Made by a program: the position numbers and the translations under genes | The notes under the pieces: generated by a model | What the model saw: the letters and a program-made list of their open reading frames with translations, nothing else | Told to the model about the DNA's origin: nothing | Databases searched by the model: none | Source: Nesterenkonia salmonea | GTDB taxonomy: Bacteria > Actinomycetota > Actinomycetes > Actinomycetales > Micrococcaceae | Assembly: GCF_005771525.1 (NCBI RefSeq) | Contig: NZ_VAVZ01000026.1 | Location: 536-50,933 of the forward strand | DNA: 50,398 nt | Reading direction: 5' to 3' | Part shown: positions 25,135 through 42,237 of the stretch, piece after piece | Position numbering within the stretch: the first letter of the stretch is position 1 | How the letters are laid out: each line of letters opens with the position of its first letter

Positions 25135-25992
25135 TTAGCGGCGAACCTTGTCGATCCGCAGCATTTTCGCAATGGTTTCGTCCAGCACAGAGTCGTCGAA
25201 GACCTTCTTCCAGTCTTCTTTGACGATCAGATTGCGACCATGGTCCATTGCGATGTGGCAGGCCTCAGAGAACGGGTTGTCTCCCCGAAGCGCGTTGGCC
25301 AGAGCGACCTGAACATGTCCGTAGAACAGCGCTTCCGCAGCGGGACGGGGAACGCCTACGGTATTGACCGTCTCTTCCAGGGCCTCTTTCAGCAGTCCAC
25401 CGATCATGCAGGTGATTGTCTCCACCAAAGTGGGTTCCAGAACCGCGAGGTGCTTGAGGGTCACCCAATGCACATCGATCACCGGTGAGTACATCGTTCG
25501 AATGACGGTTTCAGCTGCGGAGCTGACCGCGGTGTCCTCGGACTCTGCGGCAGCAACCACATGCTGGGGAGCGGCGATCCCACCGAAGGTGTCGGCGTAT
25601 TCCTCTTTTGTTGTCCGTTCAAGGAACACCGAGGGATGCGCTGGGTGCGCGCAGACATATTCGATGTCCTCACGGTGAGCCAGCAGTCCCGCATAGGCAG
25701 CAGCCGGATCCAGGGTCATCATGATCGATCCCGCGCTCATCTGCGGAACAATCTGCTCGCTCACCAAACCCAGCGCGGTGTCTGGTACCGCGAGAATGAC
25801 GACATCCGCGTCCGCCACAGCCGCTTCTGCCGGTGACGTCTCTAGGCCAGCGTCAGCCAGGCGTTGCCGACCGCCATCGGAGTTCTCCACATAGCGCACA
25901 TCAGCGGAGGTGGTCTTGAGGTTGTTGGTGATGCGTTGGCCCATCTTGCCGCCGGCGCCGATCAGGGCGATGCTGAGGGTGTCAATGTTCAT
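25135..25992 (-). CDS. apnO: ApnO-like NAD-dependent dehydrogenase (D-apionate oxidoisomerase type)
   Basis: A 285-residue two-domain dehydrogenase. IALIGAGGKMGQRITNNL is the Rossmann loop and LAVPDTALGLVSEQIVPQM the second NAD contact. DPAAAYAGLLAHREDIEYVCAHPAHP and a helical C-terminal half follow, ending DWKKVFDDSVLDETI. This matches proteins with a '6-phosphogluconate dehydrogenase C-terminal-like' domain, which include D-apionate oxidoisomerase (ApnO: D-apionate to 3-oxo-isoapionate). The stop-start overlap (ATGA) with the OiaC-like TIM barrel upstream supports a two-step oxidation and decarboxylation. The family call is fairly safe; the substrate is inferred from context and memory of the published proteobacterial pathway. 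Confidence 0.65.
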   Translation of the reverse strand: MNIDTLSIALIGAGGKMGQRITNNLKTTSADVRYVENSDGGRQRLADAGLETSPAEAAVADADVVILAVPDTALGLVSEQIVPQMSAGSIMMTLDPAAAYAGLLAHREDIEYVCAHPAHPSVFLERTTKEEYADTFGGIAAPQHVVAAAESEDTAVSSAAETVIRTMYSPVIDVHWVTLKHLAVLEPTLVETITCMIGGLLKEALEETVNTVGVPRPAAEALFYGHVQVALANALRGDNPFSEACHIAMDHGRNLIVKEDWKKVFDDSVLDETIAKMLRIDKVRR

Positions 25993-26789
25993 TGATTCTT
26001 ACTCCTGAGGTAGTCGATAGCTTGCTGGGTCCACATCCGCTCGTCCCGAAGTGTTTCTTCAGGGCTGCCGCGGCGGGGAAGCCAATGTTCGATGATCTGA
26101 TGCAGCCCACGGCCAGCGGCATCTGCGGCCTGTGACATGGCGGAATAGTCGAGGAGTCCCTCGCCGAGGGGAGCTCCAGAGAAGTAGAACCCCACCCAGC
26201 CCGGCTGACGGCTGAAGGTGAAGTCCTTGATGTGGAGGTTGTTCACCCATGCAGCGGTGCGTTCCACGACATCATGGGGAAGTTCTAGGTTGGCGACGCA
26301 GTTTCCAGGGTCTAGAACAATTCCCAGAGCTGGACTGTTCACGGTTTCGACCAGACCAACCAGTTCTGCGCTGGAGAGCTGCTCGTAGGTTTCGAGGCCG
26401 AGAGTCAGACCGCGCGCGGAGAAGTCGTCCACCGTTCCGCCGAGGAGGTCGGTCGCCTCATGGACGGGGGTGTCCGCTGGCTGCACCATGGAACGAATGA
26501 AAGTGGCTCCCAGGGCCTCTGCGATGTGCCCGTAGCGTTGCAAATGATCGCTCCGGATGCCGCGTGTTCCAAGCTCCAGGATCACATCATGTGATGCGGC
26601 GGTACTGCGCACCTGCTTCAGCTCAGCGGAACTGAGAGTCTCCACCGGGGCATAGTCACAGATCTGAAAGACCTCCGCGCCCAATTCAGCTGCGTCGATA
26701 ATCATTTCCTGCAGTGTCATAGGCTTGGGATTCACCTCCGACCATCGCCACAGGTAGGCATATGTACTGAGTCCGATCACGGCACTCAT
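25989..26789 (-). CDS. oiaC: OiaC-like TIM-barrel sugar isomerase/decarboxylase
   Basis: A 266-residue xylose-isomerase-like TIM barrel. Likely metal ligands are Glu133 (LGLETYE), Asp160 (GIVLDPGNC), His186 (VNNLHIKDF) and Glu234 (QIIEHW). It opens IGLSTYAYLWRWSEV, which I associate with 3-oxo-isoapionate decarboxylase OiaC (3-oxo-isoapionate to L-erythrulose and CO2). Other members of this fold are epimerases and isomerases, so the reaction is inferred from the ApnO-like gene it overlaps by 4 bases and from the L-erythrulose genes nearby. TTGGAGAGCGTCA precedes the ATG. It is divergent from gntR across a palindromic operator. Confidence 0.65.
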   Translation of the reverse strand: MSAVIGLSTYAYLWRWSEVNPKPMTLQEMIIDAAELGAEVFQICDYAPVETLSSAELKQVRSTAASHDVILELGTRGIRSDHLQRYGHIAEALGATFIRSMVQPADTPVHEATDLLGGTVDDFSARGLTLGLETYEQLSSAELVGLVETVNSPALGIVLDPGNCVANLELPHDVVERTAAWVNNLHIKDFTFSRQPGWVGFYFSGAPLGEGLLDYSAMSQAADAAGRGLHQIIEHWLPRRGSPEETLRDERMWTQQAIDYLRSKNQ

Positions 26790-26802
26790 TGACGCTCTCC
26801 AA

Positions 26803-26814
26803 TCAACCGGTTGA
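26803..26814. promoter_or_regulatory. GntR operator, site 1 (perfect 12-bp palindrome)
   Basis: TCAACCGGTTGA is a perfect dyad midway between the divergent oiaC-like and gntR starts. A close copy (10 of 12 positions) lies upstream of the SDR gene at 29403-29414. A site here would control both divergent genes. Confidence 0.7.
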
Positions 26815-26824
26815 CCTCATCGCT

Positions 26825-26830
26825 TATCAT
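26825..26830 (+). promoter_or_regulatory. Likely -10 element of leaderless gntR
   Basis: TATCAT ends six bases before the ATG at 26837, with the operator palindrome ending 10 bases upstream of it. This fits a leaderless, autoregulated gene. Confidence 0.5.
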
Positions 26831-26836
26831 CGCTCT

Positions 26837-27565
26837 ATGCCCCGATACCCTCAGGACCCGGCCGAAGAACTGCAGGGACGCCTCAACGCCCTGCCCGCTT
26901 CCACACCAACTGCTGCCGTGGCTTCGGAACTGCTGCGGTACTTCACCAGTGGGGGTCTCGAGCCGGGATCCCGACTTCCGGCTGAACGCAAGCTTGCGGA
27001 GATGCTCGCCACAGGAAGGTCGGCGGTCCGGGAAGCCCTTGCTGCTCTTGAAGTCCTGGGCATTGTGGAAGTGCGTCCCGGATCTGGCACCTATCTGCGC
27101 TCCAGTGCCTCGGAATTGCTTCCCCGGACTCTGAGTTGGGGGTTGATGCTGGGAGCACAAGATGCTCGGGATCTGATGCATGTGAGGGAAGCACTGGAAG
27201 TCTTGGCGGCACGCCTGGCCGCACAGAACCGCGACGACACCGCCGTCGCTCGGCTCAGAGACCACCTCCTGACCATGTCTCGGCACGCCGACTTGGGCGA
27301 TCATCACGCCTTCGTAGAAGCTGATGCGCACTTTCACCAAGAGCTTGCGGCGATCGCTGACAACGCCGCACTGGGTTCGGTGCTGCAGAGCGTGCGAGCC
27401 CTGCTGCGCGTCTGGGTTGATCGAAGCGTGGACAACGCAGCGGATGCTCGCCGCGCCATCGACGAGCACACCGCTCTCGTGGAGGCGGTGAGGGATGGTG
27501 ACGTGGCAGTTGCTGAAACTGCGATGACCGCGCATATGAAAACCGCGGGGGAGCGGATCTTGTAA
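26837..27565 (+). CDS. GntR/FadR-family (FCD domain) sugar-acid regulator
   Basis: A 242-residue regulator. The winged helix-turn-helix spans about 25-90 (GSRLPAERKLAEMLATGRSA and VREALAALEVLGIVEVRPGS). The helical FCD ligand domain follows, with metal/acid-binding residues in VEADAHFHQEL and a later DEHTAL and TAMTAHM. FCD regulators commonly sense sugar acids, matching the lactone/acid chemistry of the neighbours. The ATG at 26837 is preferred; a TTG start at 26789 would put the operator inside the gene and overlap the divergent start. Confidence 0.93.
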   Translation: MPRYPQDPAEELQGRLNALPASTPTAAVASELLRYFTSGGLEPGSRLPAERKLAEMLATGRSAVREALAALEVLGIVEVRPGSGTYLRSSASELLPRTLSWGLMLGAQDARDLMHVREALEVLAARLAAQNRDDTAVARLRDHLLTMSRHADLGDHHAFVEADAHFHQELAAIADNAALGSVLQSVRALLRVWVDRSVDNAADARRAIDEHTALVEAVRDGDVAVAETAMTAHMKTAGERIL

Positions 27566-27581
27566 GCCTGGAGTAAGAGCT

Positions 27582-28502
27582 TCATTGAGGGCCATCACTG
27601 CGTCCAGCCATCCCGGCGTCACGCACAGACGTGCGGATGTGGTAGATGCTGCTCGTCGCCGCGATGAAGAGGTCGTATTCGTCCGAGCCGCCGAAGCAGA
27701 GATTTCCCACGAGTTCAGGTACCGGGAGGAGCCCTAGAGCGGTGCCGTTCGGCGCATAGATGTAGACGCCATCTGGTCCGGAGCTCCATATGTTGCCCTG
27801 CTCGTCAACCCGGAATCCGTCGGGGATGCCGTCGGGGATCTCGAAGACAGTCCTGCCGTTGATGCATTCAACTCCTGTGGCAGTGGGGTTGAGATCATAG
27901 GCCCTCACGTGGTGGTTGCCTACCCCGGGTGGGCGGCGGACCGCGGAGGTGTCCGAGACGTAGAGCACGGACTCATCAGGAGAGAAGGCCAACCCATTAG
28001 GCTCCTCAATATCGGTGATGACGGGTGTCGCTTCCCGAGTGTTGGGGTCCCACCTGAAGACGTAGCAGGCTCCATACTCCATCCGCCCGGGGTGACCTTC
28101 CCCCTCTACCGTGATCCCGTAGTGCGGATCAGTGAACCAGACTGCGTGATCACTGGCGACGACGACGTCGTTCGGAGAATTGAAACGCCCACCGGACCAT
28201 GACTCCACCAGGGCACGGACTGATCCGGCGTCGTCGATCTCTACTCGGCGGTTGCCGTGCGAACACTGAACCACGTACCCGGATGGGTGAAGAGTGCGCC
28301 CGTTGGTGAACTGGACCTCGGTGCGGTACGTCGAGGTCTTTCCTGTGAAGGGGGAGTATTGCAGGATGCGGTTGCCGTGGATGTCGCTCCAGCGCAGAGT
28401 TTCATCAGAGGGGATCCAGCAGGGCCCTTCTGACCATGTGGCGCCGGTGGCGACGCGGGTCAGCGTCGCATCGGGAGCGAGAAGCGAATCGAGAACTGTC
28501 AT
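27582..28502 (-). CDS. SMP-30/gluconolactonase-type sugar lactonase
   Basis: A 306-residue six-bladed beta-propeller lactonase. The single metal site is recognisable as Glu25 (WSEGPCW), Asn111 (NSPNDVVV), Asn169 (EEPNGLAFSPDE) and Asp228 (GIPDGFRVDEQGN). It hydrolyses a sugar lactone to the aldonate. AAAGGAGA precedes the ATG. It lies 40 bases after the SDR gene on the same strand, so oxidation to the lactone and its opening are probably made together. In the described apiose pathway the lactonase (ApnL) is, as I recall, a different family, so this would be a replacement if the pathway call is right. Confidence 0.92.
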   Translation of the reverse strand: MTVLDSLLAPDATLTRVATGATWSEGPCWIPSDETLRWSDIHGNRILQYSPFTGKTSTYRTEVQFTNGRTLHPSGYVVQCSHGNRRVEIDDAGSVRALVESWSGGRFNSPNDVVVASDHAVWFTDPHYGITVEGEGHPGRMEYGACYVFRWDPNTREATPVITDIEEPNGLAFSPDESVLYVSDTSAVRRPPGVGNHHVRAYDLNPTATGVECINGRTVFEIPDGIPDGFRVDEQGNIWSSGPDGVYIYAPNGTALGLLPVPELVGNLCFGGSDEYDLFIAATSSIYHIRTSVRDAGMAGRSDGPQ

Positions 28503-28542
28503 GGTGGTCTCCTTTGGCCGGGTTCTTGCAACTGCAGTGGGG

Positions 28543-29331
28543 TTAGGCCGCCGTGTACCCGCCGTCGACCTGGAGGTTTGAGCCGGTGATGAATGATGCC
28601 TCGTCCGACAGCAGGAAGCAGTTGGCTCCAGCGACCTCCTCAGCGGATCCGATCCTGTTGACCGGATGGGTCTTCGCCAAGGCGATCTCCGCCGCCTGAG
28701 GATCCTCCTGGCTGGAGAGGAAAGAGTCCAGGACCGCTGAGCGCACCGACCCTGGGCCCACGGAATTGCAGCGGATTCCAGTTGCGGCGTACTCCACGGC
28801 GACCTGGCGGGTCAGCTGCACAATGGCGCCTTTGGATGCGGCATAGGCGGATTGCCCCATCTGCCCGGTCAGTGCAGAGATGGAGCCGGTGTTCACGATG
28901 GCACCTTTGATCTTGTGCTCAAGGAAGTGTTTCACCGCGTACTTGCAGCCGAGGAACACTCCGCGTGCGTTGACGTTCATGCAGCGGTCCCACTCCTCCA
29001 ATGAGGTGTCGACGAGGGATCGGGTGACGATCACCCCAGCATTGTTGACGATGCCGTGAATCCTGCCGAAGGATTGGACTGCGGCATCTACCATCCGCTG
29101 CACCTCTGCCTCCTGGGAGACATCGGTGGTGAGAGCCACTGCCGTGCCGCCGGAGCCATTAATTTCAGCGGTCACCATCTCAGCGTGCCGCGAGTCCAGG
29201 TCCACTACGGCGACTGAGGCACCCTTGGCCGCAGCCATGCGTGCGGTTGCGGCACCGATACCTGAGCCAGCCCCGGTGATAATGATGTTCTTGCCATCCA
29301 AGGGTCGGTGAGAGGTGCTTGGATCGGTCAA
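28543..29331 (-). CDS. Short-chain dehydrogenase/reductase, sugar or polyol oxidising
   Basis: A 262-residue classical SDR. TGAGSGIG (19-26) binds the cofactor and Asp at the end of the second strand (AVVDLDS) favours NAD+. NNAG lies at 96-99. The catalytic set is Ser150/152 (NTGSISALTG), Tyr163 and Lys167 (YAASKG). It ends FITGSNLQVDGGYTAA. The start is a TTG with AGGAGGG just upstream. Paired with the SMP-30 lactonase it is likely an aldose 1-dehydrogenase. A D-threitol dehydrogenase (DthD, also an SDR) is the main alternative given the tetritol genes nearby. Confidence 0.9.
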   Translation of the reverse strand: MTDPSTSHRPLDGKNIIITGAGSGIGAATARMAAAKGASVAVVDLDSRHAEMVTAEINGSGGTAVALTTDVSQEAEVQRMVDAAVQSFGRIHGIVNNAGVIVTRSLVDTSLEEWDRCMNVNARGVFLGCKYAVKHFLEHKIKGAIVNTGSISALTGQMGQSAYAASKGAIVQLTRQVAVEYAATGIRCNSVGPGSVRSAVLDSFLSSQEDPQAAEIALAKTHPVNRIGSAEEVAGANCFLLSDEASFITGSNLQVDGGYTAA

Positions 29332-29402
29332 GAGGCCCTCCTGGACTGCTTAATGTCTATGGTGTTCACGCTGTGAAGTCTGTCACGATTCTGAACAACC
29401 AG

Positions 29403-29414
29403 TCAACCGGTCAA
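29403..29414. promoter_or_regulatory. GntR operator, site 2
   Basis: TCAACCGGTCAA, on the minus strand TTGACCGGTTGA, agrees with the perfect palindrome at 26803-26814 in 10 of 12 positions. It lies 72 bases upstream of the SDR start and would bring SDR-lactonase under the same GntR regulator. Confidence 0.65.
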
Positions 29415-29440
29415 CCAATTTTCGCATGAGAGCGTTATCT

Positions 29441-29465
29441 GAACACATGTTCATGACATTTGTTC
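29441..29465. promoter_or_regulatory. SorC operator, site A (25-bp dyad)
   Basis: GAACA-n-ATGT, five bases, ACAT-n-TGTTC: a perfect 9+9 dyad. Copies occur at 33736-33760 with identical spacing and, less perfect, at 31115-31140. All three stand in front of genes of the erythrulose pathway next to a SorC regulator. Confidence 0.72.
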
Positions 29466-29481
29466 TTCAGGCCTGTAGCAT
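29453..29481 (+). promoter_or_regulatory. Promoter of rpiB/derI
   Basis: ATGACA (29453-29458), a 17-base spacer and TAGCAT (29476-29481). The -35 sits inside operator site A, so SorC binding would directly affect polymerase. Confidence 0.6.
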
Positions 29482-29516
29482 CGATGTAAAACCAACTCTC
29501 GACAAGGAGAAGTCCC

Positions 29517-29990
29517 ATGACATTCCCACTGCGCCTAGTCGTCGGCTCCGACGATGCTGGGTACGACTACAAGGAAATCCTCAAGGCGGATCTGGAAGCA
29601 GATGATCGAGTCTCTTCTGTTCACGACGTCGGCGTCGGCGACGATGAGGGGACGGCCTATCCCAATATTGCTGTGGCCGCCGCGGAACTGGTCGCCTCAG
29701 GAGAAGCTGACCGCGCACTGCTGATCTGCGGCACAGGGCTGGGTGTGGCGATCTCAGCAAATAAAGTGGCGGGGATCCGCGCTGTCACCGCCCATGACTC
29801 CTACTCGGTGGAGCGCGCCATTCTGTCCAATAATGCCCAGGTGCTCTGCGTAGGACAGCGAGTGATCGGACAGGAGCTCGCTCGCAAGCTGGCCAAAGAG
29901 TGGCTCGGGCATGAGTTTGATCCTGCCAGTGCCTCAGCTGCGAAGGTTCAAGCCATTACGTCCTACGAGCAGACCGGTAGCTGCGACTAG
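29517..29990 (+). CDS. derI: RpiB/LacAB-family sugar-phosphate isomerase, probable D-erythrulose-4-phosphate isomerase
   Basis: A 157-residue isomerase of the RpiB fold. It shows [17 protein letters not shown] at the start, the active Cys71 in [16 protein letters not shown], and [20 protein letters not shown]. RpiB itself interconverts ribose 5- and ribulose 5-phosphate. In Mycobacterium smegmatis a paralogue (DerI; EryI in Brucella) makes D-erythrose 4-phosphate from D-erythrulose 4-phosphate. The neighbouring kinase and TPI-like genes and the shared SorC operator favour the latter. AAGGAG precedes the ATG. Confidence 0.88.
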
Positions 29991-30009
29991 GACTCGCTCC
30001 GAGTGAAAT

Positions 30010-30978
30010 TTAGAGCGCGCGGGTGATCGCCCTGGCGGTCTCTTCATCGGTGACAAGGATATTGAACCAACCAGAACGCGCTGCAGTCAGGATGCTGATG
30101 GCTTTTTCCGTACCTACGGCCACAGCGATCCGTGTGGGCACTGCATGGAGGGATGAACCTGGGATGCGAACCATACGTTCGTTGCCAGGAAAGCTGATCT
30201 CATTGCCTGCATCGTCAAAGAATGCCAGGCACACGTCTCCGGCAGCTTTGACGACATTCGGATGAGTCCGGGGCACGGACCGAGCAATGGATTTGCGGGT
30301 CCGTGGCGGGGCGCCCACTCCGACCAGGGCCACCTGCGCGGTGTTCCAGTCCTCGACAATCTGGCGGTATCCAGGGTCATCCTGCAGTGCATCTAGTAGC
30401 GCCTCAGAGGGCATCGACGGGGCAAAGAGGTAGTGCGGATAACCTCCAGAAGACGCGGTGAAAGCTCGCACTACTTCATTGGTCTGGTGCCACGGATCAG
30501 GTTCGGCCTGGCCGCCAACCGTCGGGGCGATCACGACGCCGGAGTAGTCTCCCAGGCGATGCTGAGCCAGGGCATAGGTGGTTTCACCGGAGGCGATCAG
30601 CATGGCGTCCCCGGCACGGAGATTCACACTGTCAAGGGCCTGGCGCGTGGGGGGAACCAGCCCGGGACCCAGTCGGCGGGACTGATCTCCCGGTGCCAGG
30701 TACACCGCATCTAAGCCGAGTTTCTCTGTCAGTTCATCTCGCAGATGCCCCATATCCGAAGGTGCCGGCCGGCGCACCCGAATCTCGACAATGCCAAGTG
30801 CTCGTGCATCCGCGAGCATCCGGCTGATCGATGGGCGGGAGACCTTGAGCTGCTGGGCGATTTCCGCTTGAGTGGCACCCTGCTCGTAGTACAGCTGGGC
30901 CGCTTGATAGAGCCGTTCGAGCTCGGTATCACGCGGATCGAGTCCTTTGTGCGCGCTCTCAGTGGGCTGATCCGTCAC
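30010..30978 (-). CDS. SorC-family sugar-binding transcriptional regulator
   Basis: A 322-residue regulator. The N-terminal helix-turn-helix reads YYEQGATQAEIAQQLKVSRP and SISRMLADARALGIVEI. The rest is the SorC sugar-phosphate-binding domain (GDAMLIASGETTYALAQ; TVGGQAEPDPW; VALVGVGAPP; GDVCLAFFDDAGNE). Members bind phosphorylated sugars as inducers, so an erythrulose or erythrose phosphate is likely here. The GTG at 30978 is preferred because GGAGG lies 7 bases before it; an ATG at 31005 would add nine residues. It is convergent with derI and divergent from lerK, placed to control both. Confidence 0.92.
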   Translation of the reverse strand: MTDQPTESAHKGLDPRDTELERLYQAAQLYYEQGATQAEIAQQLKVSRPSISRMLADARALGIVEIRVRRPAPSDMGHLRDELTEKLGLDAVYLAPGDQSRRLGPGLVPPTRQALDSVNLRAGDAMLIASGETTYALAQHRLGDYSGVVIAPTVGGQAEPDPWHQTNEVVRAFTASSGGYPHYLFAPSMPSEALLDALQDDPGYRQIVEDWNTAQVALVGVGAPPRTRKSIARSVPRTHPNVVKAAGDVCLAFFDDAGNEISFPGNERMVRIPGSSLHAVPTRIAVAVGTEKAISILTAARSGWFNILVTDEETARAITRAL

Positions 30979-31114
30979 AACTGGGCCTCCATCAACTGTC
31001 ATCATTCAGTGGGCAACTTTACTGGTTGCACCCTCCCGGAACACACCTGTGCAGGTCTGCAACAGTTCTTCGGGACGGTGGCGAGTATCACATAGTCTGC
31101 CTTATGGTGGACTA

Positions 31115-31140
31115 GAACATTCGTCAATGCACATATGTGC
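31115..31140. promoter_or_regulatory. SorC operator, site B (imperfect)
   Basis: GAACA at 31115-31119 and ACAT-n-TGTGC at 31131-31140 match the two ends of the site A dyad, but the spacing is one base longer and the inner left half is weaker. It lies between the divergent sorC and lerK starts. Confidence 0.5.
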
Positions 31141-31193
31141 CGGCCGTTTTCTTCTCAGAAAGCAACTGGCACCCGGCACCAGAGGACCTCCAG

Positions 31194-32930
31194 ATGACCT
31201 TTCTGACTAACACAGCTGCTGATTTCCCCGCCGAGGCGCTGCGCGGTTTCGTCGCGGCGAACCCCGAGTATGTGACTGCTGTCCACGGCGGCGTCGTGCG
31301 TTCCACAGACACGCCCCAAGGTCAGCCTGCTCTGGTCATCGGAGGCGGTTCGGGCCACTATCCTGCATTCGCGGGATGGGTTGGTCCAGGGATGGGGCAT
31401 GGGGCGCCATGCGGAAACATCTTCTCCTCACCCTCAGCCTCCCAGGTGTACTCCGTGGCACGTAGCGCCGAAAATGGTGGAGGCGTGATCATGGGGTTCG
31501 GGAGATATGCCGGCGACGTCCTGCATTTTGGGGCGGCCGCCGAAAAGCTGCGTGCGGAGGGCGTCGACGTCCGCATCGTGGAGGTCACTGACGACATTGC
31601 CTCAGACTCACCGGAGAACCACCGCAACCGCCGGGGTATTGCGGGTGACCTTCCCGTGTTCAAGATTGCGGGCGCCGCCATTGAGGCAGGTGCTGACATT
31701 GACGAAGCCGAGCGCATCGCGTGGAAAGCCAATGACGCCACCCGGTCTTATGGTGTGGCATTCGACGGCTGCACCCTCCCCGGGGCGGAGCAGCCCCTTT
31801 TTCATGTGGAGAGCGGACAGATGGCGGTCGGGCTCGGTATTCACGGTGAGCCGGGTGTGAAGGACCTTCCCTTGGGGTCCGCCTCCGAAGTTGCCGATCT
31901 CCTCTTTGACGGCATCATCGCTGAGGCGCCGCAGGGCCACTCCGGACGCGTCGCTGTGCTGCTCAACGGGCTGGGCACTGTGAAGTACGAGGAACTGTTC
32001 GTGGTCTACGCGCGCTTGGTGAAGCGGCTTGAACAGCACGGCCTGACACCTGTTCAGCCGGAGGTCGGGGAGTTCGTGACCAGTTTGGACATGGCCGGGC
32101 TGTCGTTGACGCTCGTCTTCCTCGACGAGGAACTTGAAAAGCACTGGACGGCGCCTGCCGATACCCCCGCCTTCAGGCGTGGAGCGCCCAGGGACCTGCT
32201 GGCGCTGGCTGATCGTCCAGCGCGAACTGAGTTCTTCACCCCCGGAGAGGAGCCTGTTCCGCCGGCTTCTGAGGAGTCCCGTCAGTTTGCTCAGGAGCTT
32301 CAGCGAGTCCTGGAACTCTTTGAGGCCACCTGCCGGACCCAGGAAGCCGAACTCGGACGATTGGATGCAGTGGCAGGGGACGGCGACCACGGCCAGGGTA
32401 TGGTCCTCGGTTCCACGGGCGCAGTCCAGGCTGGAAAGAAGGCACTCGCCCGGGACGCCGGCGCCCGCGCACTTCTGGTGCACGCAGGTACTGCATGGGC
32501 TGAGTCTGCCGGCGGTACATCCGGGGCCCTGTGGGGAGCCGCTCTGACAGCAGCTGGCCGGGCCTTGTCGGATGACCACGCCGCCGATTCGCACTCCGCC
32601 GTGCGTGCCATGCTCAATGCGGTGGACGCCCTACAGCGTCTGGGTGGAGCACAGCCTGGAGACAAAACCATGATCGACGCCGCGGTTCCCTTCGCCCAGA
32701 CCCTGGAGCAAGAGTTCCACAACAGCGGTGATCTCTTCGCTGCTCTCAAAGCCGCTGCCCAAAGTGCTCAGACGGCGGCACAGGCTACCGCCGAGCTCAC
32801 CGCCAAGCTTGGCAGGTCCCGGGTCCTGGGGGAGAAGTCCGTGGGCACGCCGGACCCGGGTGCGACGTCGTTTGCCATCCTGATGGATGAATTGGCGCAT
32901 CACATCGGTCAGATCCAGCAGGCGAAGTAG
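31194..32930 (+). CDS. lerK: DhaK-DhaL fused ketose kinase, probable L-erythrulose kinase
   Basis: A 578-residue ATP-dependent kinase with the DhaK domain (about 1-330) and DhaL domain (about 370-575) in one chain. The substrate-binding His is His217 in GLGIHGEPG, forming a hemiaminal with the ketone. GGGSGHYPAFAGW lines the same pocket. The ATP site carries the Asp cluster in DAVAGDGDHGQGM and later GTSGALWG. The family phosphorylates dihydroxyacetone or erythrulose; the adjoining TPI-like, RpiB and polyol-dehydrogenase genes point to L-erythrulose. The ATG at 31194 has GAGGACC upstream; a GTG at 31137 would include operator site B. Confidence 0.88.
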   Translation: MTFLTNTAADFPAEALRGFVAANPEYVTAVHGGVVRSTDTPQGQPALVIGGGSGHYPAFAGWVGPGMGHGAPCGNIFSSPSASQVYSVARSAENGGGVIMGFGRYAGDVLHFGAAAEKLRAEGVDVRIVEVTDDIASDSPENHRNRRGIAGDLPVFKIAGAAIEAGADIDEAERIAWKANDATRSYGVAFDGCTLPGAEQPLFHVESGQMAVGLGIHGEPGVKDLPLGSASEVADLLFDGIIAEAPQGHSGRVAVLLNGLGTVKYEELFVVYARLVKRLEQHGLTPVQPEVGEFVTSLDMAGLSLTLVFLDEELEKHWTAPADTPAFRRGAPRDLLALADRPARTEFFTPGEEPVPPASEESRQFAQELQRVLELFEATCRTQEAELGRLDAVAGDGDHGQGMVLGSTGAVQAGKKALARDAGARALLVHAGTAWAESAGGTSGALWGAALTAAGRALSDDHAADSHSAVRAMLNAVDALQRLGGAQPGDKTMIDAAVPFAQTLEQEFHNSGDLFAALKAAAQSAQTAAQATAELTAKLGRSRVLGEKSVGTPDPGATSFAILMDELAHHIGQIQQAK

Positions 32931-32932
32931 TC

Positions 32933-33703
32933 ATGACAGCACGCTGGATCGGTACCAGTTGGAAGATGAACCTGACCCTCTCTGAGGCAGAAACGTACGC
33001 CCAGAGTCTGAGTCACTCGCTGCGCAGCCGTCCCGAACTCACCGCTGGTGTGCAGCCGTTCATCATTCCTCCGGTCACCGCCCTATCCGCAGTCCGAGGG
33101 GTTCTCGGTGACTCATCGCAGCGCCCCGGAGGCATCAAGCTGGGGGTGCAGAACGCGCACTGGGAAGACAGCGGGGCCTGGACTGGGGAGATTTCCGTAC
33201 CCCAGGCGGTGGACGCGGGGGCCGAGATTGTGGAGATTGGGCATTCGGAGCGGCGTGAGTTCTTCAATGAAACCATCCGGACAACCAGGCTGAAGGTCAG
33301 GGCGGCGCTCAAGCACGGTGCCTGGCCGCTCCTCTGCGTGGGGGAGCCCCAGGAGGTGCGTGCACGCGGGCATGCGTCCGAGTACATCCTCGGTCAGGCT
33401 AATGGTGCGCTCGAGGGCCTGAGTCCAGAACAGCTGAGCACGGTGCTGATCGCCTACGAGCCCATATGGGCTATTGGAGCCTCCGGCCGGCCAGCGACGT
33501 CCGCCGAGCTCATTGAACCTTTTCAAGCGCTGCGCGAGCAGTTCGGCGGCCACGTGGCGTCCTTGCTCTACGGCGGATCCGTGAATCCACACAACGCCCA
33601 GGATCTGCTGGCGATGAAGGATATCGACGGACTGTTTATCGGCCGCGCGGCGTGGACCGCAGAGGGCTTCACAGAGATTCTTGAGCTCGCTGCTTCCGCC
33701 TGA
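32933..33703 (+). CDS. lerI: Triosephosphate-isomerase-like enzyme, probable L-erythrulose-1-phosphate isomerase
   Basis: A 256-residue TPI-fold isomerase with the catalytic set Lys11 (TSWKMN), His104 (IGHSERRE) and Glu176 (AYEPIWAIG), plus the phosphate loop LYGGSVNPHNA. TSWKMNLT replaces the usual GNWKMN, and the gene lies 2 bases after the kinase rather than in a gap-pgk-tpi cluster. LerI/EryH-type paralogues convert L-erythrulose 1-phosphate to D-erythrulose 4-phosphate. A canonical tpiA is expected elsewhere in the genome. A dihydroxyacetone role is the main alternative, since DhaK plus TPI also makes sense for that sugar. Confidence 0.87.
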   Translation: MTARWIGTSWKMNLTLSEAETYAQSLSHSLRSRPELTAGVQPFIIPPVTALSAVRGVLGDSSQRPGGIKLGVQNAHWEDSGAWTGEISVPQAVDAGAEIVEIGHSERREFFNETIRTTRLKVRAALKHGAWPLLCVGEPQEVRARGHASEYILGQANGALEGLSPEQLSTVLIAYEPIWAIGASGRPATSAELIEPFQALREQFGGHVASLLYGGSVNPHNAQDLLAMKDIDGLFIGRAAWTAEGFTEILELAASA

Positions 33704-33760: not shown

Positions 33761-33876
33761 AGCACACTGGTTCACTGTGATTGACAGCACGTGATGAGCA
33801 TCACTGACTGTTAGCTGGATGAGGATCTGTCCCTGAGGCCGGAGTGTCCGGCCACCTGCACCTGAGGAGCGACCAC

Positions 33877-35049
33877 ATGACCACCACCTCAACTGAGGCA
33901 GAAGCAGCAACAAGTGCCCAGGTGCCAAGCACCATGCGCGCTGTTGTGGTCCACGGCCCGGAGGACTATCGGCTTGAACAGCGTCCCGTTCCCACGCCAG
34001 GACCCGGTGAACTCCTGCTGCGCACCGATGCCGTCGGTGTGTGCGCCTCAGACCTGAAGTGCTATCACGGGGCCGAGAAGTTCTGGGGCGGAGAGCATAA
34101 GCCAGCATGGGCTGAAAGAAACCGCATTCCTGGACATGAGTTCGTTGGCACCGTCGTCGCTGCTGGAGACGGAGCACTCGGCACCCGGGGAGTGGCTCTC
34201 GGCGACCGGCTGGCCTGCGAGCAGATTGTCCCCTGCAATGACTGCCTCTATTGTGACCGTGGCGGGTACTGGATGTGCGAACCCCATGACATGTTCGGGT
34301 TCAAGGGCTTTGACGGCGGGATGGCTGAGTATGTTCTCGTCCCTGAGCGGGCCCTGACGCACCTTGTTGCCGGCGGGCTTCCTGGCCAGTTCGCTGCATT
34401 CTCCGAGCCGCTGTCCTGCGCGCTGCATGCGGTGGAACGCGCCAACATCAAGTTTGAAGACACCGTCGTGGTCGCCGGAGCAGGACCCATCGGGCTCTCA
34501 GCCATCGCAGGTGCACGTCAGAAAAACCCGCTGCGCGTCATCGCACTGGACATGGTGGAGGAAAAGCTCGAGCTCGCTAAAGCCTGCGGAGCGGACCTCA
34601 CCATCAATATTTCCCAGCACGATGCCGTAGCGAAGGTCAAGGAACTCACCGGCGGCTATGGTGCCGATGTCTACATCGAGGCTACCGGTCACCCATCAGC
34701 TGTGCAGCAGGGCCTCAACCTGCTGCGGAAGTTCGGACGCTTCATCGAATACTCCGTGTTCAAAGACAAAGCTTCTGTGGACTGGTCGATCATCTCTGAT
34801 GACAAGGAACTCGACGTCCTCGGAGCCCACTTGGGGCCCCACTGCTGGCCGGCGGCCATCAAGCTCATCGAAGACGGCAAGCTGCCTATGGAGCAGATCT
34901 GCACTCACCAATTCCCCTTGGAGCGGTTCCAGGAGGCACTTGACCTGGTCGGTGATTCCTCTGGCGGTTCGGTGAAAGTGTCCATTCTGCCCAATGGTCC
35001 AGTGCCGGCAGGATCGGCGAACAATCTTGCAGGAGGCGATGCTGCGTGA
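33877..35049 (+). CDS. eltD: Zinc-dependent polyol dehydrogenase, EltD-like (erythritol/L-threitol)
   Basis: A 390-residue medium-chain dehydrogenase. Catalytic zinc ligands are Cys56 (GVCASDLK), His87 and Glu88 (PGHEFVG). Structural zinc is held by Cys120, 123, 126 and 134 (CNDCLYCDRGGYWMC). GAGPIGL near 198 binds NAD+. It fits the sorbitol/threonine dehydrogenase branch, and the gene set around it matches erythritol/L-threitol dehydrogenase EltD, giving L-erythrulose. AGGAG precedes the ATG. It leads the operon for the transporter, so its polyol is probably what is imported. Substrate choice (erythritol, L-threitol, other) is inferred. Confidence 0.82.
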   Translation: MTTTSTEAEAATSAQVPSTMRAVVVHGPEDYRLEQRPVPTPGPGELLLRTDAVGVCASDLKCYHGAEKFWGGEHKPAWAERNRIPGHEFVGTVVAAGDGALGTRGVALGDRLACEQIVPCNDCLYCDRGGYWMCEPHDMFGFKGFDGGMAEYVLVPERALTHLVAGGLPGQFAAFSEPLSCALHAVERANIKFEDTVVVAGAGPIGLSAIAGARQKNPLRVIALDMVEEKLELAKACGADLTINISQHDAVAKVKELTGGYGADVYIEATGHPSAVQQGLNLLRKFGRFIEYSVFKDKASVDWSIISDDKELDVLGAHLGPHCWPAAIKLIEDGKLPMEQICTHQFPLERFQEALDLVGDSSGGSVKVSILPNGPVPAGSANNLAGGDAA

Positions 35050-35717
35050 GCGCCCGCATCCAACGAAAAAAACTCATCCCGCGGCTCATCGGCGTCGGGG
35101 CGCTGCTGGTGCTCGTCGTTGCCATGCTGCTCAACACCAAATTCCTCACACCTGAAGAGGTCGAGGCGCTCACACCTGACCAGTTCAACCCTGAGGAGAC
35201 TGCCCAAGAGCTCTACGCCCAGGTCCAATCCGAGATGACTGAGAGCCCGGCGCCGCTCGGCGATGTCACCTCTGCGCTGGATGAAGACCCGGAGGCCGCG
35301 GCTGAGGAGTTTGACGCCGCTTCCGTCAGCGAGGGCACTGTTGCCTTTGCGGTCACAGCCGAAGGCACTGTGGCGGAGGCGACTGCCGACAACCTCATCC
35401 TCTCCGTTGAAGGAGTCCCCGAGGGCCGACAGATCGTCGTTCCGCTGAGCACCGCTCTGGACGGCAACCTTATTCGCGATATTTCAGGCTTCCGCTTCGG
35501 CGACGCCCCGGGCCAGACGGACTACCAGCGCGTGGGTACGGAGATCAGCACGCTGCTGCGCTCCGATGCCCAGGAAGCAGCCGGCCAAGATCCTGAGTCA
35601 CTGGTCGGCGAGGACATCACTGTCGATGGTGTCATGCGCTACGTGGCGACCGACGCAGAAGGCGCCGACGAACGGCCTGTCATCATCCAGCCGCTGAACC
35701 TGGAAGTGGGCTCCTGA
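35046..35717 (+). CDS. DUF2291-family membrane-tethered protein of the sugar ABC operon
   Basis: A 223-residue protein with one N-terminal hydrophobic anchor (about 14-29, LIGVGALLVLVVAMLL) and an exported acidic domain. DUF2291 proteins regularly stand just before ribose-type ABC transporter genes. The tail shows DITVDGVMRYVATDAEGADE, compatible with an OB-like fold. Its role is unknown; an accessory to the transporter at the outer membrane face is likely. It lacks a lipobox Cys. It overlaps eltD by 4 bases (GTGA) and the ATPase gene by 1, so the operon is tightly coupled. Confidence 0.8.
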   Translation: MSARIQRKKLIPRLIGVGALLVLVVAMLLNTKFLTPEEVEALTPDQFNPEETAQELYAQVQSEMTESPAPLGDVTSALDEDPEAAAEEFDAASVSEGTVAFAVTAEGTVAEATADNLILSVEGVPEGRQIVVPLSTALDGNLIRDISGFRFGDAPGQTDYQRVGTEISTLLRSDAQEAAGQDPESLVGEDITVDGVMRYVATDAEGADERPVIIQPLNLEVGS

Positions 35718-37330
35718 TGGTCACCGCGGATACGAGCACCACGAGTGAGACCCGTGACACTGAGCAGGCCGGAGAGGTCGTTCTGCGCGGGGTCAACATC
35801 TCCAAGACCTATGGCGTCACACGGGCTCTCAGAGGGGTCAATTTCGACGTCCGTCGGGGGGAGGTGACTGTTCTCTTCGGTGAGAACGGAGCAGGCAAGT
35901 CCACTCTGATGAAGATTCTCTCCGGAGTGGAGCAACCCACCGCAGGACACCTGGAACTTGATGGGGAGGTGATCGAACTTGCCTCCACCACTGACGCGGT
36001 GGAGCGTGGCATTTCCATCATCCACCAGGAGCTCAACCTCAATCCCAACCTCAAAGTTCGGGACAACATCTTCTTAGGGCGGGAGCTGTTGTCCGTCCGC
36101 GGCATCAATTATGCCGAGCAGTCGCGAATTACCCGTGAGGTCATGGAGCGGCTCGAGGAGCCCATCTCGCCGGATACCTACGTGCAGGATCTGCGCGTCG
36201 GGCAGCAGCAGATCGTTGAGATTGCCCGAGCTCTTTCCACCGATGCGCGGATCCTCATCATGGATGAGCCGACCTCAGCACTGAGCACGACTGAAGTGCA
36301 CGTTCTCTTCAAGATCATTCGCGAGCTGAAACGGCAGAATGTGGCGATCGTGTACATCTCCCATCACCTGGAGGAGGCTATCGAGATCGCAGACCGGGCG
36401 GTGGTCTTCCGGGACGGCGAGCTGGTAGCCAAGGAGGACGCCGCGAACATCGACCTCCCCTGGGTGGTGCGCACCATGGTTGGGCGCGAAGCCGACTATG
36501 ACTTCCGGGACGAGCCGCGTGAGTACGGCGATGTGGTGCTCTCGATTCAGGATGTCTCGGTCTACGATTCGGTCAGCGAGAAGTTCCCGGTCAACCATGT
36601 CTCCCTCGATGTACGCGAAGGTGAGATTGTCTGCCTCTACGGGCTGATGGGCGCTGGGCGCACCGAATTGATGGAGACGCTGGCCGGCCGGGACAAGGTC
36701 GCCGGCGGACGGATCATGCTGGACGGCAAGGATATGGCCGGACGGAGCATATCTGACCGGATCCAGCGCGGTATGGGCCTGGTGCCGGAGGACCGTCAGC
36801 GCGACGGGCTCATCAAGCTGCAGTCTGTGGGAAAGAACCTTTCATTGGCAGGACTCAGCTGGTGGGTCCGCAACGGTCTGCTACAACGTGGTGCTGAGAA
36901 TGAGCGGGTGAAACAACAGATCGCCGATATTGGCGTCAAAACGGCGGGGCCTCAGGCGCCGATCACCTCGCTCTCCGGTGGCAACGCGCAGAAGGTCGTC
37001 ATCGGAAAGATGCTCCTTACCGATCCCCGAGTGCTCCTGTTGGACGAGCCCACTCGCGGCGTGGATGTCGGAGCCAAAGGAGAGATCTTCTCCCTGATCT
37101 TCAAACAGGCACGCAAAGGCCTCGCAGTCCTCTTTGTGACCTCCGACGTGGGTGAGGCGCTGACTGCCTCACACCGGATCGTGGTGATGAGCCGAGGTCA
37201 CTTGGTCACCGAATTCGACCCTCGCGAAGCGACACGTGAGGACGTCATGGCCGCCGCGGAGGACAGCACCCCCGAACTACTGAGCGCCGAAGCACCCGGT
37301 GCGCACGCAACGAATGGAGCAGACGGATGA
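35717..37330 (+). CDS. Ribose-type ABC transporter ATPase (two nucleotide-binding domains)
   Basis: A 537-residue RbsA/XylG-type ATPase. The first domain has Walker A GENGAGKST (55-63), signature LRVGQQQIVEIARAL and Walker B ILIMDEPTSAL. The second has the degenerate GLMGAGRTE typical of this family, signature LSGGNAQKV and Walker B VLLLDEPTRGVD. It powers uptake of a sugar or polyol. The permease and binding protein follow. Context points to a tetritol or apiose rather than ribose. Confidence 0.95.
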   Translation: MVTADTSTTSETRDTEQAGEVVLRGVNISKTYGVTRALRGVNFDVRRGEVTVLFGENGAGKSTLMKILSGVEQPTAGHLELDGEVIELASTTDAVERGISIIHQELNLNPNLKVRDNIFLGRELLSVRGINYAEQSRITREVMERLEEPISPDTYVQDLRVGQQQIVEIARALSTDARILIMDEPTSALSTTEVHVLFKIIRELKRQNVAIVYISHHLEEAIEIADRAVVFRDGELVAKEDAANIDLPWVVRTMVGREADYDFRDEPREYGDVVLSIQDVSVYDSVSEKFPVNHVSLDVREGEIVCLYGLMGAGRTELMETLAGRDKVAGGRIMLDGKDMAGRSISDRIQRGMGLVPEDRQRDGLIKLQSVGKNLSLAGLSWWVRNGLLQRGAENERVKQQIADIGVKTAGPQAPITSLSGGNAQKVVIGKMLLTDPRVLLLDEPTRGVDVGAKGEIFSLIFKQARKGLAVLFVTSDVGEALTASHRIVVMSRGHLVTEFDPREATREDVMAAAEDSTPELLSAEAPGAHATNGADG

Positions 37331-38469
37331 CCACCACGGCAGAGACGGACGTCGCGGCGAGCCCTAAGCGGTTCAACATCAACTTCGGGGCTCTCATCAT
37401 GGAGGGTCGCGCCCTGGTGGCCCTGATCGTCATCATCGCGATCTTCGCCCTGATGAACGACAACTACCTGTCGTCAGGAAACCTTGCGACCATCGCGAAA
37501 GATGTCGCCTTCAACGCGATCATCGCTCTGGGCATGCTGCTGGTGATCCTGAAGGGTGGAATCGACCTCTCGGTAGGTTCCACGGTGGGTCTCACAGGTG
37601 CAGTGGCCGGCAATTTGTTCCAAGGCGTATCGCTGCCGCTGACTGACGCCGTGATGTACCCCTCCCTATGGGTCATCGTGGTCATCGCCGTAGCAGTGGG
37701 CATGCTGGTCGGCTGGATCAACGGCCTGCTGATCTCCCGGCTGAATCTCGCACCGTTCATCGTCACTCTCGGCATGCTCTACGTTGGCCGAGGTCTTACT
37801 CAGGTGCTACTGGGCGGCACCAACATCACCAATGAGCTGCGAGGTCAGGAAGGCCTCAACAACGAAGGTCTGTTTGCGATCTTCGCCAGCTATCCATTGG
37901 GAGTTCCTATCTCTGCCTGGGTCATGATCGCCCTGGCTGTGATTTTCTCCATCCTGCTGACTCGCACGCCGTTCGGACGCTGGCTCTACGCCACAGGAAG
38001 CAACGAGCGTGCCGCTGAGCTCTCCGGTGTGCCAGTCAAGCGGGTCAAGACCCGGGTGTACATCTTCACCGGAATGTGCGCCGGAATGGTCGGGATCCTG
38101 CAGATCGCCAACATCAGATCATCGACGGCAGACCTCGGCAGCCTCTACGAACTCAACGCTATTGCTGCTGTGGTCATCGGTGGCGCAGCGCTCTCCGGCG
38201 GTCGAGGCACAGTTCGCGGAACCATCATCGGTGCCTTCGTGATCGGCTTCCTCACCAACGGTTTGGTGATTGTGGGGGTGTCTCCGTTCTGGCAGACAGT
38301 GATCACCGGCGCGGTCATCATCCTCGCTGTAGCGATGGACCAGATTCAACAGATTGTGCAGAGGCGCAGGGCTGACGCCAGGGCCGTTGCGCAGGCCAGG
38401 CGAGAATCCGAGAAGCACGACGACGCGGATGTGGCTGAGGAGCCCTCCGACACTCAGAAAGTTCACTAG
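37327..38469 (+). CDS. Ribose-type ABC transporter permease
   Basis: A 380-residue permease of the RbsC/BPD_transp_2 family with about 8-10 membrane helices. Family landmarks are LKGGIDLSVGSTVGLTGAV, RLNLAPFIVTLGMLYVGRG, the coupling loop ATGSNERAAELSGVPVKRVK and VVIGGAALSGGRGTVRGT. The last 45 residues are polar and cytosolic. It overlaps the ATPase gene by 4 bases (ATGA). Confidence 0.95.
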   Translation: MTTTAETDVAASPKRFNINFGALIMEGRALVALIVIIAIFALMNDNYLSSGNLATIAKDVAFNAIIALGMLLVILKGGIDLSVGSTVGLTGAVAGNLFQGVSLPLTDAVMYPSLWVIVVIAVAVGMLVGWINGLLISRLNLAPFIVTLGMLYVGRGLTQVLLGGTNITNELRGQEGLNNEGLFAIFASYPLGVPISAWVMIALAVIFSILLTRTPFGRWLYATGSNERAAELSGVPVKRVKTRVYIFTGMCAGMVGILQIANIRSSTADLGSLYELNAIAAVVIGGAALSGGRGTVRGTIIGAFVIGFLTNGLVIVGVSPFWQTVITGAVIILAVAMDQIQQIVQRRRADARAVAQARRESEKHDDADVAEEPSDTQKVH

Positions 38470-38516
38470 GCGTGCTGGGAAATCCAGTACGCCGAATTCC
38501 AGAGAGGAATCGCACC

Positions 38517-39500
38517 ATGAAGAGAAGTATCAAATCCACTATCGCGGCCACTGCGGCCGCCGGTTTGGTCCTGACCGCTTGCGGAGGGGACGACACTGGC
38601 AATGGCGCCGGTGATGGGGAAGAAGGTTCGGGTGGCGAGATTGCCATCATCACCGTCGATCCGTCGAATCCATATTGGGCTGCTGAGGTGTCCATCGCTG
38701 AAGACCTCGCCGAGGAGATGGGTTACACCACGACGACCAGTGCCCACGGCAACGACCCGGACGAGCAGACGAGTCTGATGGAAACCGCCATCAATAATCA
38801 GGTGGACGGCATTCTCTTGGATCCAGCTGGAGCTGACGAGTCTGTCGCCATTGTCGAGCAGGCAGTCGATGCTGGCATTCCTGTGGCGCTCGTCAACGCC
38901 GAGATCTCTGAAACAGGTCTCGCGGAGGTTCAGGTTGTCTCCAACAACGCTCAGGGGGCCACCCTGGGCGCTGAGGCTTGGGCCGAGGCTATGGAATACG
39001 AGGGCACCTACGTGGAGCTCTTCGGAAACCCCAGCGATAACAACGCACAGGTTCGTTCGGACGGCTACGCCAGTGTCCTGGACCAGTACCCCGATTTGGA
39101 GAAGGTTGGTGAAGAAATCGCCAACTGGGACCGCCAGCAGGGCCAAACCGCCATGGAACAGCTGCTGTCTCGCTACCCCGACATTGACGGAGTCATTGCC
39201 GGCAACGATGAGATGGCACTGGGCGCCATCAACGCCCTGGAAGAGGCCGGCCGGATTGATGAAGTCTCCGTTCTGGGCTTTGACGGGAACAACGATGCTG
39301 CCGATGCGGTCCGCGAAGGCACCATGGTCGCCACAGTGCTGCAGCCGATCGCAGATGGCACCGAACGAGCTATGGAAGTCCTGGATGAAGTGATCCAGAC
39401 CGGTGAGAACCCCGTCGATGAGGAAAAGGTGGCCCTAGACTGCTACCTCATCACTGAGGAGAACGTGGACCAACTGGATGACTTCATCCTCAGCGACTGA
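38517..39500 (+). CDS. Sugar-binding lipoprotein of the ABC transporter
   Basis: A 327-residue Type I periplasmic-binding-protein fold (RbsB group). The signal peptide ends with lipobox LTAC (Cys22), so it is a membrane-tethered lipoprotein. After a Gly/Asp/Glu-rich linker the domain begins IAIITVDPSNPYWAAE. VDGILLDPAGADES and DGVIAGNDEMALGAI are typical binding-cleft strands. The mature part is strongly acidic, as in salt-tolerant bacteria. The ATG was chosen for the AGAGGAA upstream and the well-formed signal peptide. A strong terminator follows. Confidence 0.94.
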   Translation: MKRSIKSTIAATAAAGLVLTACGGDDTGNGAGDGEEGSGGEIAIITVDPSNPYWAAEVSIAEDLAEEMGYTTTTSAHGNDPDEQTSLMETAINNQVDGILLDPAGADESVAIVEQAVDAGIPVALVNAEISETGLAEVQVVSNNAQGATLGAEAWAEAMEYEGTYVELFGNPSDNNAQVRSDGYASVLDQYPDLEKVGEEIANWDRQQGQTAMEQLLSRYPDIDGVIAGNDEMALGAINALEEAGRIDEVSVLGFDGNNDAADAVREGTMVATVLQPIADGTERAMEVLDEVIQTGENPVDEEKVALDCYLITEENVDQLDDFILSD

Positions 39501-41702: not shown

Positions 41703-42237
41703 ATGACAGTCACATCGCTTCACGCTCCCGTCCCTGTGCTTTCCGTCGACGTCGCCCGGTCCTTTGAACCGTCCACTGGGCCCCTAATGGCCATCGCCGC
41801 CGCCGCGATCGCCGTTCTGCTGATCCTCATCATCAGGTTCAAGATCCACGCGTTCTTCGCGCTCGTCATCATCTCGATACTGACTGCTCTGGCAGCTGGC
41901 ATCGCTGCCGAGGAAGTCGTCGGCGTCGTCGTCACCGGTTTTGGAAACACAGTGGGCAACGTGGCTCTGCTGGTCGGCTTCGGCGCGGTGCTAGGCCGCC
42001 TGGTGGAAGTCTCAGGCGGAGCACAGGTGCTGGCGGACAAGATGCTGGACACGTTCGGCGAGCATCGAGCCCCACTAGCCCTGGGCGTCGCCTCGATGCT
42101 GTACGCGTTTCCCATCTTTCTCGATGCCGGCTTCATTGTCATGTTGCCGATCATCTACACGGTCGCACGGCGTCTGCAGGGCGGATTCATGCTGTACGTG
42201 CTTCCATCCATCGGCGCGTTCCTGATGATGCACGCGC
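41703..42237 (+). pseudogene. GntP-family sugar-acid permease, 5' part only
   Basis: About 178 residues match the start of a gluconate/GntP permease: several membrane helices, RFKIHAFFALVIISILTALA, GFGNTVGNVALLVGFGAVLGR, GGAQVLADKMLDTFG and FPIFLDAGFIVMLPI. It ends at LPSIGAFLMMHA, where intact members continue with PPHPGP and about 270 more residues. After the Ala codon at 42234-42236 the frame turns into unrelated sequence and stops at 42269. The permease is therefore cut in mid-membrane domain and cannot work. The adjoining DUF6807 3' fragment shows this is a deletion junction rather than a frameshift. Confidence 0.88.

Follow-up and report, generated by a model that had tools for sequence, protein, structure and literature searches.

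The genome of Nesterenkonia salmonea (GCF_005771525.1) contains, on contig NZ_VAVZ01000026.1 (positions 536 to 50,933, + strand), a stretch of 50,398 nt, referred to here as the window, that carries a gene cluster which we read as a variant of oxidative D-apiose catabolism. Plant rhamnogalacturonan II contains the sugar apiose, whose D form, according to Carter et al. 2018, is reportedly oxidised through ApsD, ApnL and ApnO, with OiaC or OiaK/OiaX. The same series, ApsD-ApnL-ApnO and then OiaC or OiaK/OiaX, is given in the accessible parts of PMC11747546, PMC6302742 and PMC13001218. In the window, serS and Dps are followed by ApnO and OiaC (minus strand), GntR (plus), an SMP-30 protein and a short-chain dehydrogenase/reductase, SDR (minus), DerI (plus), a SorC/DeoR-type regulator (minus), and LerK and LerI (plus). 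The features of this core are as follows.

25135-25992, minus strand: ApnO-like protein, putative D-apionate oxidoisomerase (PF16896, 188.8 bits, 8.1e-56, cut-off 25)
25989-26789, minus strand: OiaC-like protein, putative 3-oxo-isoapionate decarboxylase (PF01261, 60.3 bits), overlapping ApnO by 4 bp
26802-26815: operator-like palindrome with one mismatch to GTCAACCGGTTGAC, between GntR and OiaC
26837-27565, plus strand: GntR/FCD regulator, likely binder of the palindrome (PF00392 and PF07729)
27582-28502, minus strand: SMP-30/gluconolactonase-type protein, proposed D-apionolactonase (PF08450, 137.9 bits)
28543-29331, minus strand: classical SDR, proposed D-apiose 1-dehydrogenase (PF13561, 214.8 bits)
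29402-29415: second palindrome-like site, GTCAACCGGTCAAC, with two mismatches, about 70-84 bp upstream of the SDR start
29517-29990, plus strand: DerI/RpiB-type isomerase (PF02502)
30010-31005, minus strand: SorC/DeoR-type sugar-binding regulator, likely of the Ler genes (PF04198; near LerK in other Nesterenkonia)
31194-32930 (longer frame from 31137), plus strand: LerK, L-erythrulose kinase-like (PF02733 and PF02734, Dak1 and Dak2; NF011049, 730.5 bits, cut-off 492)
32933-33703, plus strand: LerI (PF00121; K11, H104 and E176 conserved)

The seven genes named in a first-pass annotation of this DNA are all present where it had placed them, and the two regulators (GntR/FCD, 26837-27565, and the PF04198 type, 30010-31005) extend its gene list. 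The stop of the SDR lies 40 bp before the start of the SMP-30 gene. The same order of nine genes is found in Nesterenkonia haasae (genome G009), at 83-94% identity. A 278-aa open reading frame antisense to GntR (26786-27622, minus strand) has no Pfam match.

We propose that the SDR would oxidise D-apiose to D-apionolactone, which the SMP-30 protein would open to D-apionate. ApnO would then oxidise and rearrange D-apionate to 3-oxo-isoapionate, OiaC would remove CO2 from this product to give L-erythrulose, and LerK, LerI and DerI would carry L-erythrulose to D-erythrose 4-phosphate, all of these substrates being predicted. The first-pass annotation had read the genes as a complete route from D-apiose to erythrose 4-phosphate; from D-apionate onwards this is well supported, while the first two steps stay conditional. 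Taken as a whole, the locus probably serves oxidative D-apiose catabolism with an SDR/SMP-30 head, GntR control and a Ler exit.

The window ApnO carries PF16896 as its C-terminal domain, its N-terminus matches NAD-binding families, and its PDB matches include 5t57 (201 bits) and 3c24 (161 bits). We compared it with 80 ApnO-related loci, the best of at least 377 confirmed relatives and a sample skewed to the window's near kin; unless stated otherwise, counts across these loci come from tblastn. In a tree of 36 rows, which includes 26 of the 80 loci hand-picked for spread, the window ApnO and those of Halotalea, Erwinia and Pantoea belong to one clade of 34 rows with full support (100/100), which excludes the long-branched ApnO proteins of S. 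meliloti and Haloarcula. Rather than grouping with unrelated subfamilies, a prospect that the first-pass annotation had raised, the protein thus shares its clade with a Halotalea ApnO that stands beside ApsD-like and ApnL-like genes. In this Halotalea alkalilenta locus (L064), an ABC importer, a Gfo/Idh protein, an ApnL homolog and an MFS gene neighbour OiaC and ApnO; the Gfo/Idh protein is 52% identical to the ApsD-like protein of S. meliloti, the ApnL homolog is 41% identical over the part covered, and no Ler genes were found within the stretch examined.

Instead of apionate, the upper genes might handle another sugar acid, the specificity of ApnO and OiaC having changed. Such a change could be read from the identity of just 41.6% between the window ApnO and that of S. 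meliloti, which has an ApnL nearby (NF049900, 834.6 bits against a curated cut-off of 750), and from the NCBIfam matches of the window proteins, among which there is no ApnO or OiaC model. Yet the window proteins are 62% (ApnO) and 55% (OiaC) identical to those of Halotalea, encoded beside ApsD-like and ApnL-like genes, and an ApnL-like gene is present in 29 of the 80 loci of the window ApnO clade. We regard a changed specificity as unlikely.

In 78 of the 80 loci, ApnO has an OiaC homolog no more than 200 bp away; the exceptions are L078 and L075, the latter with ApnO at the edge of the locus. Given this proximity and the synteny in N. haasae, the arrangement is beyond chance, and the wide spread of the ApnO-OiaC core rules out a curiosity of the window alone. 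Its context, together with the metal-type residues E133, D160, H186 and E234 (conserved in at least 97% of 85 rows), places the window protein as a putative OiaC. LerK is found in 68, DerI in 69 and LerI in 69 of the 80 loci, and 64 hold all five genes including OiaC and ApnO. On plasmids of Erwinia sp. E602 and Pantoea sp. At-9b, rpiB, MFS, LerK, LerI, OiaC, ApnO and a sugar-binding (SorC-type) regulator stand together. We predict with good confidence, from sequence comparison, that ApnO and OiaC of the window would convert D-apionate through 3-oxo-isoapionate to L-erythrulose.

Three further observations concern the distribution and setting of ApnO. The proteobacterial proteins (Erwinia, L022; Pantoea, L023; Halotalea, L064) are nested among actinobacterial ApnO in the tree, which suggests gene transfer. 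A Haloarcula plasmid (L026) carries ApnO-like, SDR, OiaX-like and OiaK-like genes, the latter two below curated cut-offs, and may represent an archaeal apiose route. In L065, L066, L078 and L097 the recurrent neighbours of ApnO include genes of the alpha-L-rhamnosidase family (Pfam-checked in L065) and an epimerase-like gene of the NAD-binding type, a pattern taken from the gene calls of a simple codon-position GC script that missed or misframed some genes; this would agree with plant glycosides or rhamnogalacturonan II being used.

Mycobacteria are known to possess Ler/Der enzymes. The LerK/LerI/DerI module is complete in the window, with a Dak1-Dak2 kinase and TIM-like and RpiB-like isomerases of predicted activity. 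DerI scores 206 bits with TIGR02133, above its cut-off of 168.2, and 152.2 bits with the curated DerI model NF051858, under its cut-off of 240, the name of this model pointing to Rhizobium-type DerI. The genome encodes two TIM-family proteins, LerI and another copy (296.9 bits) on contig C108. As stated in the accessible part of PMC10733421, EltD, LerK, LerI and DerI convert tetritols to erythrose 4-phosphate. An exit from L-erythrulose to D-erythrose 4-phosphate, combined with entry from apionate, is well supported for the window.

ApsD has the Gfo/Idh/MocA fold. By tblastn neither an ApsD nor an ApnL homolog was found in the window, to which the search for a Gfo/Idh ApsD was confined. The ApnL model NF049900 has no match in the genome, a weak absence since control genomes likewise give no match, though S. 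meliloti does. In the window SDR, residues N121, S150, Y163 and K167, which we take to be the catalytic tetrad, are conserved in 4 of 4 rows, and in the SMP-30 protein, the sole PF08450 match in its genome, E25, N169 and D228, presumably metal ligands, are conserved in 9 of 9. An order-wide search with the window SDR at 1e-85, in which generally six candidates per genome were scored, returned 1 of 396 genomes, its own.

An SDR at the head of such clusters is seen elsewhere. The type that we call SDR9 (at least 45% identical to the SDR of locus L054) is present in 21 of the 80 loci, and all 21 also hold one of the 29 ApnL-like genes. The one ApnL-like protein scanned reached 219 bits with the ApnL model, far below its cut-off, and we treat these genes as probable relatives of ApnL, not as proven ApnL. 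A Gfo/Idh protein more than 50% identical to the ApsD-like protein of S. meliloti occurs only in Halotalea, and weaker genes (24-32%) in five loci (L068, L070, L071, L079 and L084). Because SDR9 is always accompanied by an ApnL-like gene and Gfo/Idh genes are rare, an SDR with a lactonase looks like a common actinobacterial head of the apiose route. The window SDR was rejected as an ortholog of SDR9: in a tree of 46 rows with many long branches, the two fall into different clades, each with full support, and no sister relation between them is supported.

The link between these head genes and the ApnO genes is provided by a palindrome. A GTCAACCGGTTGAC site lies between GntR and OiaC in the window (with its one mismatch) and in genomes G009, G015, G024, G025 and G033, and a second site upstream of the SDR, between SDR and DerI, occurs in the window, G009 and G025; in G024, SDR and SMP-30 follow ApnO and a GntP gene on one strand. 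A GntR homolog, 42-94% identical, is encoded in 67 of the 80 ApnO loci, with a site near the GntR start in 54 of them. Exact palindromes number 40, in 37 of the 80 loci, compared with none in the reversed control and none in one dinucleotide shuffle; allowing up to two mismatches gives 79 sites in 62 loci, compared with 5 and 4 in the same controls. Among the 29 ApnL-like loci, the SDR/ApnL-like unit has its own site in 12 and directly follows ApnO in 11, and 6 show neither arrangement. One of these six, L101, a metagenome-assembled genome, has SMP-30 (55%) and ApnL-like genes as one unit, about 60 bp behind an exact site. GntR probably binds the palindrome and, from it, would co-control the OiaC-ApnO and SDR-SMP30 units; the conservation of the site supports a tie between the two.

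Co-occurrence points the same way. Among 30 Nesterenkonia genomes, ApnO (a match of at least 74% identity) is present in 5, SDR in 5 and SMP-30 in 8, the other genomes giving only weak N-terminal ApnO matches. SDR is found in 4 of the 5 genomes with ApnO vs 1 of the 25 without it (Fisher p 0.0009), and SMP-30 also co-occurs with ApnO (p 0.011). The proposal that SDR and SMP-30 stand in for ApsD and ApnL therefore keeps its tie to ApnO, through the shared operator-like site and co-occurrence, but the substrates of both proteins are predictions. As to its novelty, which the first-pass annotation had also put forward, none of the open-licence papers listed was found to describe an apiose dehydrogenase of the SDR family or an apionolactonase of the SMP-30 family, an absence that is not proof, but an SDR in the place of ApsD is not confined to this locus. 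We lean moderately towards the SDR being an apiose dehydrogenase and the SMP-30 protein an apionolactonase, and replacement of both first enzymes seems likely.

Downstream of LerI, the window continues with genes that bear on other inputs into the Ler module.

33844-35049, plus strand: EltD-like zinc alcohol dehydrogenase, likely tetritol entry (PF08240 and PF00107)
35046-39500, plus strand: DUF2291 protein and Rbs-type ABC importer RbsA, RbsC, RbsB (PF10054 in the first gene, PF13407 in the last; RbsA and RbsC named by reading; synteny in N. haasae)
39696-40664, plus strand: SPIM, a TIM barrel (PF01261), perhaps a separate sugar-acid entry
40717-41691, plus strand: HBDH, of the 3HCDH type (PF02737 and PF00725), perhaps of the same separate entry
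41703-42269: short GntP permease gene, 188 aa in the window vs 479 aa in G024

No match to GntP was found in the 60 kb around the locus in G009. SPIM matches PDB entry 5tnv (508 bits), whose name is uninformative on function, and the PDB matches of HBDH, like those of the window SDR, are relatives of many functions. At 1e-95, an order-wide search found HBDH in 72 of 396 genomes, with SPIM in 15 of 29 of those loci (short stretch), and HBDH and SPIM are each present in 17 of the 30 Nesterenkonia genomes. SPIM and HBDH, often with GntP beside LerK, LerI and DerI, may form an undescribed sugar-acid route into L-erythrulose.

Several observations weigh against the apiose reading. Of the 67 loci with a GntR homolog, 13 lack a nearby site, and the palindrome with up to two mismatches is not enriched genome-wide (15 in the window's genome vs 17 in the control), so that the regulatory argument rests on place, not number. 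The window SDR does not join the SDR9 clade and therefore looks like a separate recruitment, and SMP-30 homologs are near ApnO in only three of the 80 loci (N. haasae, a Jiangella without OiaC, and L101). The ApnO proteins of the four Nesterenkonia genomes that also carry the SDR make up a single group (88/92), so the co-occurrence may reflect one event and not four independent ones. There is no clearly apiose-specific transporter. G015 and G033 carry ApnO-OiaC-GntP with neither SDR nor SMP-30 nearby, and the G015 genome has neither gene. SMP-30 occurs without ApnO in four genomes (G002, G003, G008 and G019). In G002 it follows an SDR beside apparent GntR and GntP remains, in G008 two overlapping pieces of it adjoin LerI, and in G019 it is whole and adjoins rhamnose-type genes; we read these three as probable leftovers of a larger cluster. 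In G003, a genome with no ApnO or SDR, a whole SMP-30 (match to residue 300) follows SPIM-HBDH-GntP-LerK-LerI, an arrangement that speaks for this SMP-30 having a function other than in apiose breakdown. As a separate observation, genes that on reading look rhamnulokinase-like and lactate-dehydrogenase-like neighbour SMP-30 in G002 (L119) and G019 (L121).

G003, and the lack of a nearby SDR in G015 and G033, would be explained if SDR and SMP-30 belonged to another oxidative aldose route feeding HBDH and SPIM (aldose to lactone, aldonate, 3-keto-aldonate and ketose), with ApnO and OiaC serving only imported D-apionate. HBDH, SPIM and GntP do lie downstream in the window, and in G024 they adjoin SDR and two SMP-30 genes. 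The distribution of the SDR, however, does not follow HBDH (3/17 vs 2/13, p 1.0, in the 30 Nesterenkonia genomes), and no palindrome precedes SPIM in the window, whereas OiaC and SDR both have one. Elsewhere, 8 of 29 HBDH loci carry a different SDR, 32-34% identical, and in the 80 ApnO loci, where SDR/ApnL-like pairs are common, homologs of HBDH and SPIM were both absent by tblastn. We consider such an aldose route rather improbable, and retain the apiose assignment for SDR and SMP-30.

The Ler genes themselves appear to be the older part of the locus. A serS-Dps-DerI-SorC-LerK-LerI-SPIM-HBDH-GntP arrangement without ApnO is found in G010, G011, G014, G022 and G027, and also in G015, whose ApnO genes lie elsewhere in the genome with a second Ler set. 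Since the Ler locus is present without ApnO, its genes are not tied to a single input. The apiose genes would have been inserted, in the lineage of the window, between Dps and DerI of this older Nesterenkonia locus, and the EltD/ABC genes between LerI and SPIM. One could then suppose that the window holds mainly an erythritol/threitol operon, its upper genes being inactive or an unrelated insertion, as its EltD-like gene, Rbs-type importer and Ler/Der genes and the Ler loci of other Nesterenkonia without the upper genes might suggest. Against this, the upper genes are open frames with the expected catalytic residues conserved, and they are retained together with their sites in N. haasae, which makes this supposition extremely improbable. 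In S. meliloti (L024, 8891-13253), a DUF2291 gene and an Rbs-type ABC importer stand beside ApnO, an ApsD-like gene and ApnL, and the window importer may therefore carry apiose, with or instead of tetritols.

A broader scheme can also be drawn, in which L-erythrulose is a three-way hub: apiose through SDR/SMP-30, tetritols through EltD and an undescribed straight-chain C5 sugar acid through GntP-HBDH-SPIM would meet at LerK, and actinobacteria would have recruited an apiose SDR into one GntR regulon at least twice. Here HBDH would oxidise at carbon 3 and SPIM would be an OiaC-like decarboxylase. This scheme is tentative, and we hold it to be possible but doubtful.

If the apiose reading is true, current annotation would overlook the enzymes with which actinobacteria degrade apiose, since the two starting ones are members of large generic families. 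A sequence handle for finding such starting enzymes is available in the conserved site, and the locus permits a direct test of repeated, unrelated enzyme replacement within one pathway.

Based on these findings, we suggest that the window likely holds a previously undescribed form of a known pathway, in which both starting enzymes are replaced. It resembles the oxidative D-apiose pathway in ApnO, OiaC, the Ler/Der exit and the proposed order of reactions, and differs in having an SDR for the Gfo/Idh protein ApsD, SMP-30 for ApnL, and a GntR regulator with a palindromic site. With the actinobacterial GntR-MFS-LerK-DerI-LerI-OiaC-ApnO clusters, some of which include SDR9 and ApnL-like genes, it shares the ApnO-OiaC clade, GntR, the palindrome, and an SDR with a lactonase. 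Its SDR, however, is of a separate clade, SMP-30 stands where they have an ApnL-like gene, no MFS gene was seen in the window, and its LerI belongs to a different subfamily, with 29-38% identity to that of 68 loci (N. haasae excluded). Tetritol catabolism by EltD-LerK-LerI-DerI, as presented in the accessible part of PMC10733421, has in common with the window LerK, LerI, DerI and an EltD-like dehydrogenase, to which the window would add a further entry by decarboxylation of a branched sugar acid.

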